A stretch of DNA of 64,000 nucleotides, taken from positions 1,204,501 through 1,268,500 of the forward strand of contig NZ_PSYR01000001.1 in the NCBI RefSeq assembly GCF_003333315.1, read 5' to 3'. Under the pieces are notes generated by a model that saw only the letters and a program-made list of their open reading frames with translations, did no database searches and was not told the origin of the DNA. The translations under genes and the position numbers were made by a program. Origin of the DNA: Acidiferrobacter thiooxydans (GTDB lineage: Bacteria > Pseudomonadota > Gammaproteobacteria > Acidiferrobacterales > Acidiferrobacteraceae). Position 1 is the stretch's first letter; each line of letters begins with the position of its first letter. Positions 12,759 to 50,293 of the stretch are shown piece by piece.

Positions 12759-13439
12759 ATGCATATCCCAACATCAGACGGTACCGATGTCAAGAAGAAG
12801 CGAGATCTTGCACCTAGTCAGTTGGAGGCTATAAAGACACGGCTGGCGCGTATAGACGTTTTCCTGGAAAAGATTCAGGCGCAACATGAGCGCATAGTGC
12901 TGATGCCAGGAGCGCTTTCAGAAGAAATAGCGGGGCGTGTACAGGGCTACAGGGATGCGACAATGCCGGATGGAATCAGTGAGGAATTCCTGGCACGGTT
13001 AGTGGGCCGTGCCGGACTATCCTCGCGCTCCGACTGGTATCGGCATATAGGCGAGGAGTTCGCGAACGATGCCGATACGGCAAGGGTTTTGCGTGTAGAA
13101 CTCGTGGACCCGGCGTATAACTCGCTTTTCATTCGAAGCGGTGAGGCTTTCGCAAGTGACGGCATCCGAAGGTTGAAGCTGCCTGCATTGCTGACGACCG
13201 TATTGGTCGCCCGCGTCTATGATCGGCCGATAGAGGTGGCGCGGGAGGCGATTCGAATGGCGCAATTCGTTCATTCAGGCGGGCTCTCAGGACTTTTGGG
13301 CTGGGCGAAGGAATATGGAACGGAATACTTCGCGGAGGCAATGGCTGAGAAGACAAGAGCGGGCCTAGAAGGCATATCGACTTGGGCGAGGATGGAGAGG
13401 GGTGTGGCAAAATGGATAGGAGTGGAGATCAAGAAATAG
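12759..13439 (+). CDS. Unknown protein coupled to a NUDIX hydrolase
   Basis: I do not recognise this 226-residue protein. It is soluble, with no signal peptide or membrane helix. Residues about 20-60 look like a charged helix (QLEAIKTRLARIDVFLEKIQ), a mixed region follows, and the C-terminal third is helical (TTVLVARVYDRPIEVAREAI). The NUDIX gene starts inside its last 28 bases, so the two are very likely translated together and act in one process. The unit stands alone between a sulfotransferase and insertion sequences, typical of accessory modules. No function can be assigned. Confidence 0.75.
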   Translation: MHIPTSDGTDVKKKRDLAPSQLEAIKTRLARIDVFLEKIQAQHERIVLMPGALSEEIAGRVQGYRDATMPDGISEEFLARLVGRAGLSSRSDWYRHIGEEFANDADTARVLRVELVDPAYNSLFIRSGEAFASDGIRRLKLPALLTTVLVARVYDRPIEVAREAIRMAQFVHSGGLSGLLGWAKEYGTEYFAEAMAEKTRAGLEGISTWARMERGVAKWIGVEIKK

Positions 13440-13930
13440 TGGAATATAAGAACCAGTGGTTTAGGGTAATTAGGAAAGGCAAGTTTCATTACGTTGACGA
13501 GCCGATGGCACATAATGCAGCGGTTGTGTTTATCGAGTTTCAGGGCCAACTGGTCCTGATAGAACAGTACAGAGTAGCTGCCGGGTGCGTACTTTTGGCG
13601 ACTCCGAGAGGGTACGGAGAAGGGCAGGAAACAAGTGCCGCATGTGCAGTTCGAGAGGCGTTCGAGGAGACGGGGTTTCGTGTATCGGAGCGAGATCTTA
13701 AATACCTGGGGAAGGTGCGACCGAATTCGGCGATTTTGACGAGCGTCGTGGATGTGTATTTCGGTGTGGCAAAAGAAAATAGGGCTGAGCGTCTGGATAC
13801 GGATGAAGTCACGCGCGTGGTGTTGTGCTCCTACGATGAATTCGAGAGGAAGGTGACAGATGGGTATGTGACGGATGGGTTTACGTTGGCGGGATATTTG
13901 TTTTTGAAATTGAAAATGAGATCGAGCTAG
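13412..13930 (+). CDS. NUDIX hydrolase (ADP-ribose pyrophosphatase-like)
   Basis: A 172-residue NUDIX protein. The NUDIX box is complete in two adjoining pieces, GYGEGQETSAACAV and REAFEETGF, fitting G-x5-E-x7-REU-x-EE-x-GU and so keeping the metal-binding glutamates. NUDIX enzymes cleave nucleoside diphosphates linked to another group; the overall look (long N-terminal strand region, LVLIEQYR before the box) is closest to ADP-sugar pyrophosphatases (family knowledge). The ATG at 13412 has GAGAGGGG about nine bases upstream and lies within the previous gene. The stop abuts an IS200-type left end. Confidence 0.88.
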   Translation: MDRSGDQEIVEYKNQWFRVIRKGKFHYVDEPMAHNAAVVFIEFQGQLVLIEQYRVAAGCVLLATPRGYGEGQETSAACAVREAFEETGFRVSERDLKYLGKVRPNSAILTSVVDVYFGVAKENRAERLDTDEVTRVVLCSYDEFERKVTDGYVTDGFTLAGYLFLKLKMRSS

Positions 13931-14049
13931 CCTACAAAGGGAGCCCCCCCGGCTCTGCCGGGGAGGCAGTAAAAGTTTGACAAATAGGGGAGTCCATCGA
14001 CGAAACTCCCATTCGTGAGCCGCCAAGCTAACGAAGAGGAAATTTCACG

Positions 14050-14481
14050 ATGGACGAGTACCAAAGCCTAAGCCACTCGAAGTGGGAGTGCAAATATCAT
14101 GTGGTGTTTATTCCGAAATGTCGCCGAAAAACGCTATACGCCCAGCTGCGGCAGCACTTAGGCGAAATATTCCGCAATCTGGCAGAACGCAAGGAAAGCC
14201 GGATCGAGGAGGGCCACCTGATGTCAGATCATGTGCACATGATGATATCGATTCCACCCAAGTACGCAGTCTCACAGGTGGTCGGGTACATCAAGGGCAA
14301 GAGCGCCATTCATCTGGCACGCGTGTACGGGGAACGGAAACGCAACTTCGTCGGGCAGCACTTCTGGGCCCGAGGGTACTTTGTCTCCACGGTCGGGCGC
14401 GATGAGGCCACCATCCGGGAGTACATCAGAAACCAAGAGCAAGAAGATCAGCGCCTGGACCAAATGAACCTGTGGCGTTGA
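14050..14481 (+). CDS. tnpA: IS200/IS605-family transposase TnpA (Y1 HUH)
   Basis: A 143-residue single-domain Y1 transposase that moves single-stranded DNA ends. It has the HUH metal site in MSDHVHMMISIPPKY (His-Val-His), and the C-terminal helix EATIREYIRNQEQEDQ carries the candidate nucleophilic tyrosine. The start YQSLSHSKWECKYHVVFI is typical of the family. Length is normal and the frame is intact, so the protein is probably active. A hairpin GCCACCG-TG-CGGTGGC lies directly after the stop (14484-14499). No TnpB partner is present. Confidence 0.95.
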   Translation: MDEYQSLSHSKWECKYHVVFIPKCRRKTLYAQLRQHLGEIFRNLAERKESRIEEGHLMSDHVHMMISIPPKYAVSQVVGYIKGKSAIHLARVYGERKRNFVGQHFWARGYFVSTVGRDEATIREYIRNQEQEDQRLDQMNLWR

Positions 14482-14549
14482 TGGGCCACCGTGCGGTGGC
14501 CCCCAAGAACCGGGGCCGCGTGAGCGACCCCCTGATATGTATTGACCTG

Positions 14550-14860
14550 TCAACTACTGGTATGGGTTTTCTTTTGTCTTTTCGCTCCTTTTGTCCGTAA
14601 GTCTTTGAGTCAAGGCACGAGCGGCTGTTAACGACGGTCGATCACTCTGATATACGCGGGTTGGATACCGCCTGACTTCGCTTCGTCGTGGAGCTGCCTC
14701 GCTCTATAATCGAGGGTCACCGGGTTGAATCGGCGCCTCATAGGGGGGCCGAGGATTCTCCCACCGGGCCACTCCTGCCTTGATATAAAGACTCACGTCT
14801 CATGGTTAATAGTTTACCAGTCACACTGACAATTATAGTATACTCGAAGTCTTATGCGCT
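14550..14860 (-). ncRNA. Candidate seekRNA/bridge RNA region of the IS1111-like element
   Basis: IS110/IS1111 transposases are guided by a structured RNA from the element's own non-coding part; in the IS1111 group it lies downstream of the transposase gene. The 318 bases after this transposase's stop are within the element, encode nothing and contain several short self-complementary stretches. I have not folded it or matched guide loops to the target, so both the boundaries and the RNA itself are inference from position. Confidence 0.35.
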
Positions 14861-14867
14861 ATGTTGG

Positions 14868-15980
14868 TTACTGGGTCTCCGTCTGGACGGCACAGGCCAC
14901 GGCCCACAGGAAGCCTGTGAGCTCACGGGCAATGGCCGTGCACACCTGCACCTTGATCTTGCCGGCGCGGATCAGGTGCTGGTAACGGCCGCAGAGCCGC
15001 TTCTGGGCCTTCCAGGCGATGGCCTGCACGGGATCGCTGGTGTTCTTGGCCCGCCGTTGCAGATGCGCGGTCTTGCGCGCCGGGAAGCGGTAGCACCAGG
15101 CGGCCTCGGTGAGCACCCGCCGGACGTGCCCATTGCCGGTCTTGGTAATGCCGCCGCGGCGGGTGGTGGCGCCACTGGAGGATTCGGAGGGCACGAGCCC
15201 CAGATAGCTCATGAGCTGCCGGGGCGAGGTAAAGCGCGTGAGATCCCCGATCTCGGCGACCACGGTAAGGGCCGTCACGAGCTGTATGCCGCGCAGCGCC
15301 ATCAAGGCGCGCACGATGGGGGCTAATGAGAAATCGTCCAGGACCCGCACCATCTCCTCTTCCAGGGCCGCCACCCGGCCGGTGAGATGGGCCACGGTAT
15401 CGACGTACTCCTGGAAGACGTTCTGCTGGACGGGGGCCTCGAACTTGAGGGTCATGAGCCACTCACCATGGGCCTTGGTCCATTTGGTCTTGCCCGCGGC
15501 ATAGAGGCGACCATGACGCAGGAGAAAGGCCGATAGGCGCTGCTTGGCCTGCCGCTCGAGGGCCTTGGTGTCTTCCCGGGCGCGGGTGAGGTCGCGCACC
15601 GCCTCTTGCTCGGGTCCTGGGACCCAGACCGCCGTGAGCTCGCCGGCGCGATGCAAGCGGGCGAGCGATTCGCTATCCCGGCGATCGGTCTTCACCCGAT
15701 CCCCGGGCTTTACGGGGATGAGCGAGGGGGCGACCACGGCGCAGGCATGGCCCAGATGGGTCAACTGCCGGTGGATGCCGTAGCCGCAGGGGCCGGCCTC
15801 GTAGCAGAACGACAGCACCTCACCGGCCGGGCTCAACTTCTTCACGAGCTTGGCCACCGCCTCCGGGGTGTTGGCGATCTCCCCGTAGTAGCGCGGCTTA
15901 CTCTGGCCGGCCTCGGCAATAGCCACCGCTATCGTGTCCTTATGTGTATCCAAGCCTATGTACTTGCTAAACTTCGTCAT
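14868..15980 (-). CDS. IS110/IS1111-family transposase (DEDD)
   Basis: A 370-residue recombinase. The N-terminal RuvC-like DEDD domain starts KYIGLDTHKDTIAVAIAEAG, with acidic residues in LDTHKD, CYEAGPCGYGIHR and KTDRRDSESLARL. The C-terminal domain has LRGIQLVTALTVVAEIGDLT and SYLGLVPSESSSG, with the conserved serine typical of the family. The ATG at 15980 has AGGGGGCAGG directly upstream and is preferred to a TTG five codons earlier. Frame and length are intact. The gene lies between the 13-bp inverted repeats and opposes the IS200 transposase. Confidence 0.95.
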   Translation of the reverse strand: MTKFSKYIGLDTHKDTIAVAIAEAGQSKPRYYGEIANTPEAVAKLVKKLSPAGEVLSFCYEAGPCGYGIHRQLTHLGHACAVVAPSLIPVKPGDRVKTDRRDSESLARLHRAGELTAVWVPGPEQEAVRDLTRAREDTKALERQAKQRLSAFLLRHGRLYAAGKTKWTKAHGEWLMTLKFEAPVQQNVFQEYVDTVAHLTGRVAALEEEMVRVLDDFSLAPIVRALMALRGIQLVTALTVVAEIGDLTRFTSPRQLMSYLGLVPSESSSGATTRRGGITKTGNGHVRRVLTEAAWCYRFPARKTAHLQRRAKNTSDPVQAIAWKAQKRLCGRYQHLIRAGKIKVQVCTAIARELTGFLWAVACAVQTETQ

Positions 15981-16177
15981 GACCTGCCCCCTCAATTGTG
16001 GCTCTGAGCTGATGGTGGTTTTCCCGACCTCAAGCTTAATCCACGTCGCTTGAGGCCGGGCAGGTCAATACATGATGTCTATAGCCGCTTTGAGCGGCTC
16101 ACAAATTAAAGCCCCCGGCTCTGCCGGGGGATGTTTACCCAGGTGGCCCGTCATGTGAGCACGGCGGGTTTATTTGC

Positions 16178-42871: not shown

Positions 42872-44428
42872 GTGGGGCGGATACGGGGCACAGGGTGGGG
42901 GTGGGCGATCATGGCGGCCGTGGTGCTTGCCGGCGGCGCACTCACCACGGCGTACGCCTTCGATTACGCTGATGTGGTCGGCAAGGCCCAGCAACTGGCG
43001 GCGCGTCCCTTCAAGCCGCAGCCGCGCATCGCGCAGCTGGCGGGCCTCACCTACGACGAGTATCGTAGTATCCATTTCCGGCCGACCGCCACCTTGTGGC
43101 CGCGACGGCATCTGCATCTCCAGTTCTTCGCCCCCGGCTACCGCTTCGTGCGCACGGTATCGATCTCGGTGCTGGCCGCCGGGCATGTCCACAGGCTGCG
43201 GTTCCGGCGCTCCTTGTTTCATATCCCCCCCGGTCTCTATCCTCACCGGCTGCCGCGAAGCGTCGGCTATGCGGGCTTTCGTGTGCTCTCCAACAGTTAT
43301 CATCCCGACCGGTCGCCGGTGGCGCCCAACAGTCAGGTGATCGTGTTCCTCGGGGCGAGTTATTTCCGTGCCAAGGGGTCGCATGAGCAGTTTGGGCTGT
43401 CGGCGCGTGCCCTGGCCCTCGATACCATCGCCCCGCGCCCCGAGGAGTTTCCGCACTTCATCGCATTCTGGATTCGGCGTCCGGCGCGTCGCGCGCATGC
43501 CCTCACGGTATTTGCGCTCCTGAATAGTCCCAGCGCCACCGGGGCCTTCCGATTTCGCATCCGCCCCGGGCGTGCCGTGCATGTCCGGGTGCGTGCGACA
43601 TTCTTTTTTCGCAGGCGCGTGTATGAGCTTGGCATTGCACCGCTCTCCAGCATGTATATGTATGACCTGTGCGACCGGCGCCCGTGGGCCTATCCGCGTC
43701 CCGCGATCCATGATTCCGAGGGATTTCTGCTCGCCAGCCGGCACGCGGTGCGCTGGCGACAGCTCGCCAACCCTGCGCGCGTACATCAGTTCGTGTTCCC
43801 GGTCCGCCATCTGCGCGGCTTCGGTCTCATTCAGCGGGACCGGGACTTTTTTGACTACGAGTCGGTATCGATGCGTTATCAAGGGCGGCCCAGTGTCTGG
43901 ATACGGCCGCGTGGCGCATGGGGGCCGGGTGCGGCGACCCTGGTCGAGATCCCGACCCCCAACGAGACCAACGACAACATCGCCGCCTTCTGGCAGCCGG
44001 CGCACCCGCCATCCCCTGGGCACGCCTATCGCCTGCGCTATACCCTGATCTGGAACGGATCGGGACCACGGGAGTCGCGGGCGCAGGTCGTGCGCACCCG
44101 CGCGAGCGAGCGTTGTGTGGGGCGCCCGGTGCGCTTTGCCATCGACTTTCAAGGGACGCGGCTCGGCCGGCTGATCGCGGCCAGGCGCCTTGCCGCGCGC
44201 CTGCGGACCACGGCCCCGGGCACGCCGATCTCGCATGTGCGTTTGCGCGCGGTGGCCCACGATCGCGTGCGCCTGAGCTTTACGGTGGCTGCGCACCGTC
44301 CGCGCGCGCTACGGATCCGCGCCGTGCTCATCGCCGGCGGCCGGCCGGTGAGCGAGGTCTGGGATTATGTGGTGGCGCGCGAGGAGCCACCGATGCAAGT
44401 GCTGCGGCGCACGCAGGGTGGGGCATGA
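42872..44428 (+). CDS. OpgG/MdoG-like periplasmic glucan protein
   Basis: A 518-residue exported protein of the OpgG/OpgD family, which shapes osmoregulated periplasmic glucans. A signal peptide ends near TTAYAFDYADVV. Family landmarks are GLTYDEYRSIHFRP, QLQFFAPG-type strand (HLQFFAPGYRF), VFLGASYFRAKG, FGLSARALALDT, LGIAPLSSMYMY near 250, GFGLIQRDRDFFDYESVSMR, and LVEIPTPNETNDNIAAFW near 365. GTG 42872 has AAGGGG five bases upstream. It overlaps the next gene (ATGA). No glucosyltransferase lies beside it; opgH is 10 kb away with its own opgG. Confidence 0.9.
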   Translation: MGRIRGTGWGWAIMAAVVLAGGALTTAYAFDYADVVGKAQQLAARPFKPQPRIAQLAGLTYDEYRSIHFRPTATLWPRRHLHLQFFAPGYRFVRTVSISVLAAGHVHRLRFRRSLFHIPPGLYPHRLPRSVGYAGFRVLSNSYHPDRSPVAPNSQVIVFLGASYFRAKGSHEQFGLSARALALDTIAPRPEEFPHFIAFWIRRPARRAHALTVFALLNSPSATGAFRFRIRPGRAVHVRVRATFFFRRRVYELGIAPLSSMYMYDLCDRRPWAYPRPAIHDSEGFLLASRHAVRWRQLANPARVHQFVFPVRHLRGFGLIQRDRDFFDYESVSMRYQGRPSVWIRPRGAWGPGAATLVEIPTPNETNDNIAAFWQPAHPPSPGHAYRLRYTLIWNGSGPRESRAQVVRTRASERCVGRPVRFAIDFQGTRLGRLIAARRLAARLRTTAPGTPISHVRLRAVAHDRVRLSFTVAAHRPRALRIRAVLIAGGRPVSEVWDYVVAREEPPMQVLRRTQGGA

Positions 44429-45771
44429 CCGGGGCCGGCAGGCCACCCCGGTGGGCCTCCTGGATGGCGTTGGCGGCAACGCTCGTGCCTTGGCCGACCT
44501 GGGGGAGGGGGTATGAGGCCGATAGCCGTGGCGCGGCCCCGGTGGCGTGCGCCTTTTCGCGCATCGTGCCGCTCTCGTGGCCATCCCCGGCGCGCCGTGC
44601 GTCCGCGCGCCCCTGGGCGCGGCTTGCCGGGCGGCGCGGGTCCTGGGTGTGGTGCGGGGGCGACGGCCGCCGGGGCCTGTCCGTGACCCTACCCGGAGGG
44701 CGATCGCGACGCTGCGCGGGCGTGCGCGTCACGGTGCCCGGGGGTGGCGGCCGGCGCGTGACCTGGTTGGCCATCGGCCACGGCTCGTTCTGGGCGCGGC
44801 CGCTCGGGATGTCACGAGGGGTATCGGTACGCGCCCTCGGCGCCCGGGGGATATTTCGACGCGTGACCCTGGCTGTGCATAAGGGGCAGCTGGTGGCCGT
44901 GGCGAGTGTCAGCGCCCCAGGCGCCCAGGCGCGCTATCATCTGACCGTGTCTGGTCGCCAGACGGTGCACATGACAGTGATCGAGAGAGCCTCCTATCTG
45001 GGTGCGGCCGTGGCCCGACGGGATCGGCCGGCGCTCGCGGGATTTTATGACTTTGGGGTGGGCACGGCGATGTCGGCCATGGCCATCGACCCGGCACGCC
45101 ATGATGCCGATGGCCTGTGGCTCAGCGATGCCCGCGGCCCCTCATGGGCGCCGCTGCGTAATCCCCGTCACCCCTGGCGGCAGACCTATGGCCCGAGGGT
45201 GCGCGCCTTTGGTCTCCTGCAGCGCGATCGTACGCGGCACTATTATGGCGTGCATGCCGCGCGCCAACAGGATGCCCCGGATGTCATCGTGCATTGGCCC
45301 GGGCTGGGGACGCGGGTGGTGTTGCGCGAGCGGCCGACGGCGGGACGCATGGCACCCAATGTGCGGGTGATGTTCGGGCCGTGGGCGGCGGATCGCGAGA
45401 CGCTGCGCTATCGTCTCACGTGGACGCGTATCCAAAGGCGTGCTGGAGATCGCGCAATCGTGGTGTCCACGCGTCTGGGCGGCAATGTCCGCACCGGGGC
45501 GCGCATGTACGTCATCGACTATGCGGGAGGGGCTATCGCCCGACGGCTCCCGGTCCATGCCGTCGCCGGAAAGGTGCAGGTCCATCCCGACACCTTCGTC
45601 ACCCAGGATAGCGTGCGCTACAACCCCTATACGCACGGCTACCGCCAGGTCTTGCAGGTCCTGCCAATGGCTGGGCGCAATATCCATGTGCGCGCTTGGC
45701 TGAGCGTTTACGGTCAGCGCCTCTCGGAGACCTGGCGCTATACACTCTTCGCCCCGCGCATTGCCCACTAG
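44425..45771 (+). CDS. Divergent OpgG-like protein, tandem paralogue
   Basis: A 448-residue exported protein overlapping the previous gene by four bases. The second half keeps pieces of the OpgG pattern: HDADGLWLSDARGPSWAPLR, VRAFGLLQRDRTRHYYGV, and a C-terminal immunoglobulin-like stretch RMYVIDYAGGAIARRLP and SETWRYTLFA. The first half is shorter and arginine-rich and lacks the GASYFRA and GLSARG motifs, so the active groove is probably altered. It likely acts with its neighbour, perhaps as a non-catalytic partner (inference). An IS200-type end begins directly after its TAG stop. Confidence 0.65.
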   Translation: MTGAGRPPRWASWMALAATLVPWPTWGRGYEADSRGAAPVACAFSRIVPLSWPSPARRASARPWARLAGRRGSWVWCGGDGRRGLSVTLPGGRSRRCAGVRVTVPGGGGRRVTWLAIGHGSFWARPLGMSRGVSVRALGARGIFRRVTLAVHKGQLVAVASVSAPGAQARYHLTVSGRQTVHMTVIERASYLGAAVARRDRPALAGFYDFGVGTAMSAMAIDPARHDADGLWLSDARGPSWAPLRNPRHPWRQTYGPRVRAFGLLQRDRTRHYYGVHAARQQDAPDVIVHWPGLGTRVVLRERPTAGRMAPNVRVMFGPWAADRETLRYRLTWTRIQRRAGDRAIVVSTRLGGNVRTGARMYVIDYAGGAIARRLPVHAVAGKVQVHPDTFVTQDSVRYNPYTHGYRQVLQVLPMAGRNIHVRAWLSVYGQRLSETWRYTLFAPRIAH

Positions 45772-45830
45772 CCTGCAGGCCCCGGCCCTGCCGGGGAGGC
45801 AGCTAAAGTGTGACGCAAGGGGAGTCCATC
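45772..45830 (+). mobile_element. Solitary IS200/IS605-type left end
   Basis: A hairpin CCCCGGC-CCT-GCCGGGG (45780-45796) and the following bases AGGCAG...GGGGAGTCCATCG match, over about 50 bases with one gap and few mismatches, the left end in front of the Y1 transposase at 13947-13996. No transposase follows. Both copies sit right after a gene's TAG stop with the same CTAGCCT flank. It is either a relic left by the IS66 insertion at 45842 or a non-autonomous end mobilised by the intact TnpA. Confidence 0.65.
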
Positions 45831-45841
45831 GTGTCCTTCCG

Positions 45842-46512
45842 GTAAGCATGCAGGAAGTGGTTTTTTGCCCCTGCTAACGTTCGCTGCGTACTCCAACCGA
45901 TAAGGAACGCAGCGAATGAACAAGACGAGAGAGACGGAACCAGGACGGGATGGCGACGAGACCCCAGAGCAGACCCAAGCGCTCTTCCAGCGCTGGCGGG
46001 AGAGTCGTCGGCCGGGCGCGCGTATCCCCAAGGTCTTATGGGCGGCGGCCGTCAGAATGGCCAAGCGCTACGGGGTGCCACAGACGGCGCAGCACTTGCG
46101 CGTCGATAGTCAGCAGCTCCTAAAGCGCATCGAGGGCGCAGGGGGCGCGGCTCCCACCGGGCCACGCCCCATCGCGTTTGTCGCGTTGCCGGGACTCGCG
46201 CCATCGGCTGAGGCCGGGATCGCCGAGTGTGTCGTGGAGCTTCAGAATGCGCGTGGGGGGACGATGCGGGTGCGCTTGCAGGGCCTGGGGCTTACCCATC
46301 TGGCGCCTCTGTGCGCGGCCTTCTGGGAGGCGCCATGATCGCCATTACCCCGCACATGCGGGTGCTGGTGGCGGTGGAATCGGTGGACTTTCGGGTCGGT
46401 ATCGACGGGCTGGCGCAACGCTGTCGGGCGGTCCTGCAAGAGGATCCCTTCCAGGGGACGGTGTTCGTGTTCCGCAGCCGCTCGCATACGGCCATCAAAC
46501 TCCTTATTTACG
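45842..46512 (+). mobile_element. IS66-family element, left half only
   Basis: Begins at or near GTAAGCATGCAGG (45842), which has the GTAAG start of IS66-family inverted repeats, and contains tnpA and the first part of tnpB. The rest of tnpB, tnpC and the right end are missing; homology stops near 46512. It was probably inserted into the IS200-type relic and later truncated. Confidence 0.65.
45916..46338 (+). CDS. tnpA: IS66-family accessory protein TnpA
   Basis: A 140-residue accessory protein of IS66 elements, with FQRWRESRRPGARIPKVLW at the N terminus (helical DNA-binding region) and the family end AECVVELQNARGGTMRVRLQ ... LAPLCAAFWEAP. The frame is intact and its stop overlaps the tnpB start (ATGA), the usual arrangement. 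Without TnpB and TnpC it cannot transpose by itself. Confidence 0.88.
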   Translation: MNKTRETEPGRDGDETPEQTQALFQRWRESRRPGARIPKVLWAAAVRMAKRYGVPQTAQHLRVDSQQLLKRIEGAGGAAPTGPRPIAFVALPGLAPSAEAGIAECVVELQNARGGTMRVRLQGLGLTHLAPLCAAFWEAP

Positions 46513-46562
46513 ATAAATGGTACGCACCGAGTAATGTGGAGTGGCCAGTCGGTCGCGCTTAA
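46335..46562 (+). pseudogene. tnpB: IS66-family TnpB, truncated
   Basis: Starts ITPHMRVLVAVESVDFRVGI and continues through QEDPFQGTVFVFRSRSHTAI and KLLIYD, the N-terminal half of IS66 TnpB (normally about 115 residues). After about residue 60 the sequence no longer matches and runs into a 13-bp inverted repeat. The deletion also removed tnpC. Confidence 0.85.
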
Positions 46563-46599
46563 GCAGCCGAAGAATTATCCGACCCAACTCCACATTACT
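46530..46599. repeat. 13-bp inverted repeat at the IS66/integrase junction
   Basis: AGTAATGTGGAGT (46530-46542) and its exact complement ACTCCACATTACT (46587-46599) enclose 44 bases. It lies exactly where IS66 homology ends and about ten bases before the stop of the integrase remnant. It may be a terminal repeat of the element that carried the integrase, or a small two-ended relic formed by deletion. Confidence 0.75.
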
Positions 46600-46608
46600 A
46601 CTCGTCAC

Positions 46609-47095
46609 TTACAGCGATTCGAGCCATTCAAGAACTGAAGTGTTTTTGTGCCACTGAGTCGGGCGTCCCAGAGGACTGTGGGGCGCGGCCGCTTTGGCGA
46701 GGGCCTGTCGCTTCATGTCCAGATCGATCGTCGCATAACGGTTTGTCGTGTCACTGCTGGCATGCCCTAACCACTTGCTGATGTCGGCAAGCCCTACACC
46801 CGACTTGAGCAAATAGATCGCGCAGCTGTGTCGTGCTGAATGCGGGTGAAGACGTTTGACGCCCAACGATGGGCAGTTGACCGCCGCAGGGCGGCAATAT
46901 TTACCGAAAACATAGCGAATCCCGAACCGCGTGAGGCGCTCGCCGCGATGATTACAGAACACTGGCGCAGCCGAGTGCAAGTTCAGTTCGTTCTTGGTGA
47001 CAAACTCCTTTATGACTTGCGCCGTCTGCGGCCATAGAGGGCAGATGCGCGTCTTGCGCCCCTTGCCCACGATTTTTGTCAGATTGGAGAGACAG
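46609..47095 (-). pseudogene. Tyrosine recombinase/integrase, C-terminal fragment
   Basis: The catalytic part of a tyrosine recombinase. It holds HPHSARHSCAIYLLKSGV (H-x-x-R) and WLGHASSDTTNRYATID (G-H and the nucleophilic Tyr), and ends KNTSVLEWLESL. The frame can be read from NLTKIVGKGRKTR, but a TAA lies just upstream and the N-terminal arm-binding half and first catalytic Arg are gone. The C-terminal style resembles integrases of transposon-like recombinase-trio elements (tentative). It is non-functional as an integrase. Confidence 0.85.
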
Positions 47096-49156: not shown

Positions 49157-49558
49157 GCGGCGCGGCGGCGAAGCGACTACCGCCCACGCCGTTGCTTTAA
49201 CCGTTCATCTCATTGAGTTTACTATGAAAGGGTGATGACTAAAGGCAATACACCCCCGACCCCGTAAACGCGGCAAGAGAGTAAGACCATGTCGAACGGG
49301 TGATGCGGCGCGCGGTGCGCATATCGTTGCCAAGTAGCCGAAGTGCCTTCGCCAGGAAACCTGGCGAGGCCTTTTTACTGTGCGTGCTCAATGGCGACCA
49401 TTCGGGGTACGAGTCGGCTGCTTGGATCACACGAGCGTGCGGGGTTAAGGCCCCAAAGAAATGATCGATCTCAGACAACGGCGCACCGCGCACCCCTATT
49501 TTCTTTCATCATCCGGGGTGGTGGCAAACTCTTTCGCCCACCATTGATAGCAGGTGTC
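49157..49558. other. Intergenic stretch at the edge of the mobile region
   Basis: About 400 bases without a gene other than the terminator at 49345-49376. It is the border between the decayed mobile segment and core genes; no tRNA or attachment-site duplication is visible to me. No strong Shine-Dalgarno stands before the GNAT start at 49559. Confidence 0.45.
49345..49376 (+). terminator. Intrinsic terminator
   Basis: CGCCAGG-AAA-CCTGGCG forms a perfect 7-bp stem, extended with a bulge by GCC/GGC, and CTTTTT follows. It would end transcription from the phage-like gene group and shield the GNAT gene. Confidence 0.75.
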
Positions 49559-50293
49559 ATGGCAAAGACGGAAAGGAATCTCTTGGGGCAGGAGGTGGGG
49601 TTGCCGGTGGTCGGCTGGCGGCCGCCACCGTATCCGGATGATCGTGCGCTCAGCGGGCGCTTGTGCACGGTCGAACGGATAGATGCAATGCGCCACGCGC
49701 AGGCCCTCTACGATGCCTATGGCCTCGACCAGGAGGGTCGCCTGTGGACCTATCTTCCGCACGGGCCGTTCGCGAATTTTGCCGACTATCGGGCCTGGCT
49801 TGTCGACGCGCAACACCGTGCCGATCCGTGGTTCTACGCGATCGTGGATCATACCACCGGGCAGGCGGTGGGTAGCGCCGCCTATCTGCGCATGAATCCC
49901 GAGGCTGGATCGATCGAGGTGGGGGCGCTGGTCTTTTCCCCGCTTCTACAGCGCCGGCCGGCGGCCACCGAGGCCATGGTGCTCATGATGGCGCACGCCT
50001 TCGCGCTCGGTTATCGCCGCTATGAGTGGAAATGCGATGCCCTGAACCAACGCTCGCGCGCGTCGGCGCTGCGTCTCGGATTCTGCTACGAGGGCACGTT
50101 TCGCAAGGCGGCGGTGGTCAAGGGCCGCAATCGCGACACCGCCTGGTTTGCCATCACGGACGACGAGTGGCCGGCGCTTTCACGGATCTTGTCGCGCTGG
50201 CTGGATCCCACAAACTTCGATGCCGCCGGGGGGCAGCGCGTGGCGCTATCGTCCCTTACGCGGGCCTGGCGCGCGTCGCACGATGAGTTCTGA
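49559..50293 (+). CDS. GNAT-family acetyltransferase (RimJ/RimL-like)
   Basis: A 244-residue GNAT protein. After an N-terminal region with a proline-rich WRPPPYPDDRALSGRL come the substrate-side FADYRAWLVDAQHR, the beta4 strand AGSIEVGALVFSPLLQRRPA with the acetyl-CoA pyrophosphate loop, and LNQRSRASALRLGFCYEGTF typical of RimL-type enzymes that acetylate protein N termini or small amines. The substrate is unknown. It appears to be monocistronic. Confidence 0.85.
   Translation: MAKTERNLLGQEVGLPVVGWRPPPYPDDRALSGRLCTVERIDAMRHAQALYDAYGLDQEGRLWTYLPHGPFANFADYRAWLVDAQHRADPWFYAIVDHTTGQAVGSAAYLRMNPEAGSIEVGALVFSPLLQRRPAATEAMVLMMAHAFALGYRRYEWKCDALNQRSRASALRLGFCYEGTFRKAAVVKGRNRDTAWFAITDDEWPALSRILSRWLDPTNFDAAGGQRVALSSLTRAWRASHDEF

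Follow-up and report, generated by a model that had tools for sequence, protein, structure and literature searches.

Members of the IS200 group of the IS200/IS605 family, which carry TnpA only, encode a single-tyrosine (Y1) HUH transposase and possess subterminal hairpins with a guide located 5' of the hairpin; they insert 3' of a fixed tetranucleotide and do not duplicate the target. For IS608 of Helicobacter pylori, movement as a single-stranded circle is established, and the fourth base of its guide pairs with the fourth base of the target. Unlike IS200-group elements, IS608 encodes tnpB in addition, and it uses TTAC as left target and TCAA as right end. REP sequences and their cognate TnpA-REP transposases show a comparable organization, featuring a hairpin with a 5' tetranucleotide, a location between genes and a high copy number. 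In Haloquadratum, core deletions between terminal palindromes left terminal-only units (PATEs) of approximately 50 bp, as described in the available part of PMC3119063.

The window, i.e. the whole stretch of 64,000 nucleotides analysed here, represents C1:1204501-1268500 of a 3.25-Mb genome in four contigs. It harbours an IS200-group element and, further downstream, a second copy which differs from the known members of the group in consisting of a truncated left end only. It can be stated with high confidence that positions 45772-45831 represent the decayed left end of a TnpA-only element of the IS200 group, whose insertion was directed by CTAG and a guide and which an IS66-type block later truncated. 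It is a broken IS200 remnant of the ordinary kind and nothing mobile of a new type. The features of both loci are listed below, with the evidence in brackets.

13927 to 13930, plus strand: CTAG target of the first copy, with TAG (13928-13930) as stop codon of a NUDIX-domain gene (ORF 13382-13930, domain, empty site)
13931 to 16138, plus strand: IS200-group element measuring 2208 bp together with its IS110-type insertion (borders coincide with the junction of the empty site)
13931 to 13999, plus strand: left end with guide AGCC (13942-13945) and hairpin (sequence, fold, alignment)
14050 to 14481, plus strand: tnpA, encoding a single-tyrosine HUH transposase (Y1_Tnp, IS200/IS605 family) of 143 aa (domain, NCBIfam, structure match)
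14532 to 16085, minus strand: IS110-type element within the IS200 element, ends approximate, transposase at 14868-15995 (ORF, domain)
16108 to 16138, plus strand: right end with guide AAAG (16108-16111), hairpin and terminal TTAC (16135-16138) (sequence, fold, empty site)
45768 to 45771, plus strand: CTAG target, with TAG (45769-45771) as stop codon of an mdoG-like gene (mdoG of the same-genus genomes G005 and G002 also ends in CTAG and is not followed by an element there)
45772 to 45831, plus strand: IS200-group left-end remnant with guide AGGC (45777-45780), hairpin and tail (sequence, genome match, fold, alignment)
45832 to 46562, plus strand: truncated IS66-type remnant with a TnpB_IS66 domain in 46335-46562 (edge common to a second genomic copy from approximately 45835)

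The transposase of the first copy was identified by a match to PF01797 and by a score of 148.7 bits against the IS200/IS605 NCBIfam model NF033573 (cut-off 55 bits). It contains the HVH motif within the peptide MSDHVHMM and matched solved IS608 TnpA structures with an E-value of 1.3e-17, these not being the top match. Both ends of the element were predicted to fold into hairpins (z -2.12 and -3.43), and terminal inverted repeats were found by eye to be absent from the ends CCTACAAAGGG and GATGTTTAC. In G005, the NUDIX gene (98% protein identity) is followed by an element-free junction reading GAGCTAG and then CCAGGTGG; thus, GAGCTAG directly precedes CCAGGTGGCCC in G005, and the element lies between GAGCTAG and CCAGGTGGCCC in the window. 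It follows from this empty site that insertion occurred 3' of CTAG without target duplication and that the right end is TTAC, terminating at 16138. In G001, also of the same genus, the NUDIX gene likewise closes with CTAG, and the downstream sequence differs. The Y1 HUH transposase, the hairpins at both ends and the lack of terminal inverted repeats correspond to the IS200 group, as do the tetranucleotide kept at the left flank without duplication (one empty site, in G005; 29/29 loci of Acidovorax temperans) and, among the matches listed, guides complementary to the left (45/46 and 44/46) and right (32/34) cleavage sites.

A second full IS200 copy in the same genome carries a TGA within tnpA (C2:504101-504457), so that the tnpA of the window appears to be the sole intact one of its subtype among the copies found. 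In this copy (C2:503952-506159), an IS110-type element occupies exactly the position that it has in the window copy (14532-16085), flanked by two conserved hairpins. The two composites differ at eight positions, all of which belong to IS200 sequence, the roughly 1.5 kb of IS110 sequence being free of differences. It is therefore unlikely that both elements travelled as one unit, and the IS110-type element probably entered each IS200 copy separately at the same site.

Regarding the second locus, positions 45780-45831 were matched to the left end of the first copy in a whole-genome search (87% identity over 53 bases, E 7e-11), and in a multiple alignment the similarity reached the CTAG border once a gap of eight was allowed. 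Furthermore, the 13-base motif GGGGAGTCCATCG from the shared tail, searched with at most one mismatch, occurred at two sites of the window only, namely both left ends (0.16 expected by chance). These results agree with a preliminary description of this DNA, in which a shared left end including the hairpin and a position of both copies directly behind the TAG of a gene had been proposed: CTAGCCT was found at 13927-13933 and 45768-45774, where the NUDIX ORF and the MdoG-domain ORF (43918-45771, ending with TAG at 45769-45771) terminate. The same description had taken CTAGCCT as the border, of which CTAG alone proved to be the target, CCT being element sequence. The remnant has retained the guide AGGC, with a spacer of 5 nt instead of 11 nt between cleavage site and guide, and possesses the left hairpin alone, whose predicted fold is not unusual compared with shuffled sequences (z -1.07). 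Near 45772, tnpA was detected neither at the DNA level (E up to 1) nor through a Y1_Tnp family search (E up to 0.001), and a right-end search (E up to 10) yielded no right end there; accordingly, the combination of both ends and tnpA that characterizes an autonomous element was not found.

The match to the left end stops at 45831 because the IS66-type block starts within approximately four bases. Its TnpB_IS66 domain (46335-46562) scored 54 bits in Pfam (cut-off 26.6) and 51.8 bits in NCBIfam (cut-off 50). The same block edge recurs at C2:656183 with 99% identity and without a left end in front; the edge is defined to within approximately 10 bases, since CCTTCCG precedes GTAAGC in two copies and partly in a third one. 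Inspection by eye showed that the gene behind mdoG in G005 and G002 corresponds to the one located near 49560 of the window; both genomes thus lack positions 45772 to approximately 49500, a stretch that was probably inserted. Since mdoG ends with CTAG in G005 and G002, both of which are free of the second copy, the CTAG stop probably predates the insertion; in more distant relatives, mdoG closes with TGA or TAA.

Further structures were observed within the same stretch. An inverted repeat, AGTAATGTGGAGT / ACTCCACATTACT, is located behind the truncated IS66 block in the window (46530-47070) and at C2:657684-657881. It adjoins a tyrosine-recombinase fragment (46609-47070, minus strand), and the same junction recurs in C2. 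Moreover, a hairpin (CGCCAGG...CCTGGCG) followed by AGGCCTTTTTAC was detected at 49320-49375, close to the right-hand border of the presumed insertion, and could be a terminator or the end of another element.

In order to evaluate the target rule, at least 557 confirmed relatives in the genome collection were considered, of which 80 loci were kept, 29 of them from A. temperans DSM 7270. Among the matches listed, CTAG was present at the left border of all 29 A. temperans loci. These represent 28 distinct sites, as loci 124 and 139 have common flanks and were counted once; the 28 sites are not fully independent, several being located within copies of one repeated sequence (e.g., 115 and 120). 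In L122, another insertion separates the right end from the remainder of the element. The base after the target was C or T at all 28 sites, as opposed to 49% of the other CTAGs in the same flanks (p 2e-9). This resembles the preference of IS608 for C, with purines being disfavoured, just after the target, as given in the available text of PMC5934647. The fixed short target that had been suggested for the two window copies is thus supported by the empty site in G005, by the 28/28 distinct CTAG sites and by the complementarity of target and guide. CCAG and CTGG at two old copies of the window's genome (C2:423718 and C2:1067577, respectively) count against this explanation, as do the left tetramers TTAG, CTAC and CTGG in relatives. 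CTAG is rare in the window's genome, with 221 occurrences in a 464-kb sample (GC 63.7%) compared with 507 expected from a trinucleotide model and 1549 from base composition. In the literature surveyed, mainly titles and abstract openings with subscription papers scarcely covered, CTAG is not named as an IS200-group target; it is mentioned as a mutated REP foot in the available part of PMC8266576 and as an avoided tetramer in that of PMC3119063.

Guide and target were compared for the 51 non-Acidovorax loci, of which 46 have a readable left end and five do not; the 29 Acidovorax loci were omitted as near-identical. The 46 elements are not independent, four representing a single element shared by Polaromonas and Achromobacter and two being located on one contig; L101, L110, L160 and L164 start at or near a contig edge. 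Among the matches listed, the left targets comprised CTAG (27), TTAA (7), CTAA (5) and seven further tetranucleotides with a single occurrence each. Target base 1 was complementary to guide base 2 in 45/46 and target base 4 to guide base 4 in 44/46 of these listed elements, with CTAG borders set by pattern and the 19 other borders by eye. For the non-CTAG targets, 11 genomes were checked, ten of which hold one copy; the TTAA border was examined on two copies in the genome of L148, whose common sequence starts from TTAA. Right-end guides and terminal tetranucleotides were complementary at position 4 in 32/34 cases among the 51 loci (the reading pattern presets TT), and the right end was TTAC with a matching guide in 30/34 readable cases among the matches listed. 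Here CTAG on the left and TTAC on the right take the place of the two IS608 tetranucleotides. The crossed scheme fits the IS608 structure, in which guide base 1 pairs with target base 2 and guide base 2 with target base 1, including the pairs A+16 with T-3 and A+17 with T-4 (PMC5934647, available text). Closely related TnpA proteins accompany left ends with differing targets (CTAG, TTAA, CTAA, TTAG and TTAT) and matching guides in the series L092-L171. Such closely related natural elements equipped with different guides (CTAG, TTAA, CTAA and others) lend themselves directly to testing the DNA-guide rule of IS608.

By analogy with IS608, the following course of events is proposed. The IS200 element would move as a single-stranded circle, with TnpA folding its ends into hairpins. 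The four-base guide 5' of the left hairpin would pair with the target CTAG, and the element would be joined 3' of it without target duplication. A share of the CTAGs in this genome are gene stops (xxC TAG), where insertion spares the upstream protein; both window copies landed on such stop CTAGs. Later, the IS66-type block would have cut the second copy, the left end alone remaining. The 60-base leftover adjoins the end of a gene because the transposon inserts after CTAG, which here includes the stop codon.

The preliminary description had further postulated a harmless insertion habit at gene ends and proposed that all genome copies be tabulated with their flanks. Genes were called with a simple codon-usage ORF caller, so that the categories 'inside', 'stop' and 'intergenic' are approximate. 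In the 464-kb sample, the 221 CTAGs were classified by this caller as 31 stops, 109 inside ORFs and 81 between them. Among nine left-end-type matches at E 0.001 in the window's genome, seven are located at CTAG, the other two at the CCAG and CTGG mentioned above, and five of the seven lie behind a stop, one of these (L005) resting on a 65-codon ORF. Relatives in the genus and family contributed 3/9 CTAG copies behind a stop, resulting in 8/16 altogether; these counts omit the non-CTAG copies, i.e. CCAG and CTGG in the window's genome and, in relatives, TTAG, CTAC, CTGG, TTAA of L078 and the decayed L215. The fraction of 8/16 exceeds that of random oriented CTAGs (31/442, p 4.5e-6) and of non-genic CTAGs (31/193, p 0.0017) and hardly exceeds a stricter guess at harmless sites (31/112, p 0.048); in these comparisons, the control for the relatives' copies is the window's genome only, and the copies are taken to be independent in the Fisher and binomial tests. 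Likewise, when open frames of at least 100 codons ending at TAG were counted independently of a gene caller, 9/16 copies compared with 83/410 CTAGs were obtained (p 0.002), the nine cases not all being the same copies as the eight stop cases. Chance choice among CTAGs alone consequently fails to describe the genus of the window.

A different picture emerged outside the genus and family. In A. temperans, 1/28 sites is located at a stop and 13/28 inside ORFs, compared with 2 stops and 35 inside among 100 other CTAGs in the same flanks, and the open-frame test gave 4/28 vs 17/164. In other bacteria, this test showed no excess either (5/24 CTAG copies vs 17/82 among the matches listed; out of 27 such copies, the 24 whose left flank reached 350 bases were included). 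These findings indicate that the mechanism picks CTAG and not gene ends, and survival of insertions that did no harm is the preferred reading of the stop excess in the genus of the window. The proposed habit thus holds for the genus and family as an observed bias, and targeting of gene ends is not supported. A plain rule, insertion after CTAG, combined with survival can mimic deliberate insertion at gene ends.

Other explanations were weighed against survival. The left target of the lineage could itself have been selected as a stop-codon tetranucleotide, the guide having evolved a safe-site rule visible as the 8/16 stop sites, because insertion 3' of a stop would spare the upstream protein. 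The last three bases of the left target are in fact TAG, TAA or TGA in 42/46 non-Acidovorax elements among the matches listed (27 CTAG, 7 TTAA, 5 CTAA and one each of TTAG, CTGA and GTAA); however, 13/28 A. temperans sites are located inside ORFs, the sample is phylogenetically clustered and 19/46 borders were set by eye, and this scenario is considered unlikely. A true preference for stop codons or transcript ends, acting in addition to the CTAG rule, would account for the 8/16 CTAG copies in the genus and family, but no sign of it appeared in A. temperans, whose near-identical copies indicate a young expansion, by stop count or open-frame test, or in the 24 CTAG copies of other bacteria by the open-frame test; gene-end targeting is accordingly judged very unlikely.

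It is highly improbable that left-end hairpins behind genes were kept for mRNA stability or termination, as REP hairpins can be. The hairpin stem is preserved (by eye) in the gene-end remnants consisting of a left end only at C1:1160087, at C2:1645383 and at 45772 in the window, and effects of REP sequences on mRNA stability and termination are reported in the available part of PMC6006769. On the other hand, copies are few, the fold at 45772 is not unusual, and neither G005 nor G002 has the unit at the orthologous locus. An intrinsic terminator at 45772 was rejected, as no T-run follows the hairpin (by eye) and its fold does not stand out. The element also differs from REP systems in that its TnpA, at 39.6 bits, falls short of the REP-transposase cut-off of 80 and that the genome contains nine left-end-type matches at E 0.001; judged on the TnpA of this element, the high copy number and cognate TnpA-REP of REP sequences were not observed.

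The solitary left end had also been regarded as a possible non-autonomous unit, which would be moved in trans by the TnpA of full copies; although a full tnpA exists at 14050-14481 and short units resembling fused left- and right-end tails with one hairpin occur at C1:20874, G001:C92 and G006:C44, similar to the 52-bp terminal-only units of Haloquadratum (PMC3119063, available part), this idea was dismissed as barely credible, because the piece at 45772 lacks a detectable right end, is cut off at the IS66-type block and has a shortened spacer, and a second copy of its truncated form was not found in the genome search. Both ends repeated as the same unit, as in terminal-only PATEs or MITEs, were not seen at 45772, where, unlike in the Haloquadratum units as far as described in PMC3119063, left-end sequence 3' of the hairpin is kept.

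The short units themselves measure approximately 40 bp and are each located behind CTAG, at C1:20874 of the window's genome (L029), G001:C92:28484 (L091) and G006:C44:2798-2832 (L220). They combine the left guide of IS200 with a single hairpin region and a tail resembling a right end, with one copy in each of the three genomes, and apparently represent core deletions between the two terminal hairpins, comparable to the core-deletion products of Haloquadratum.
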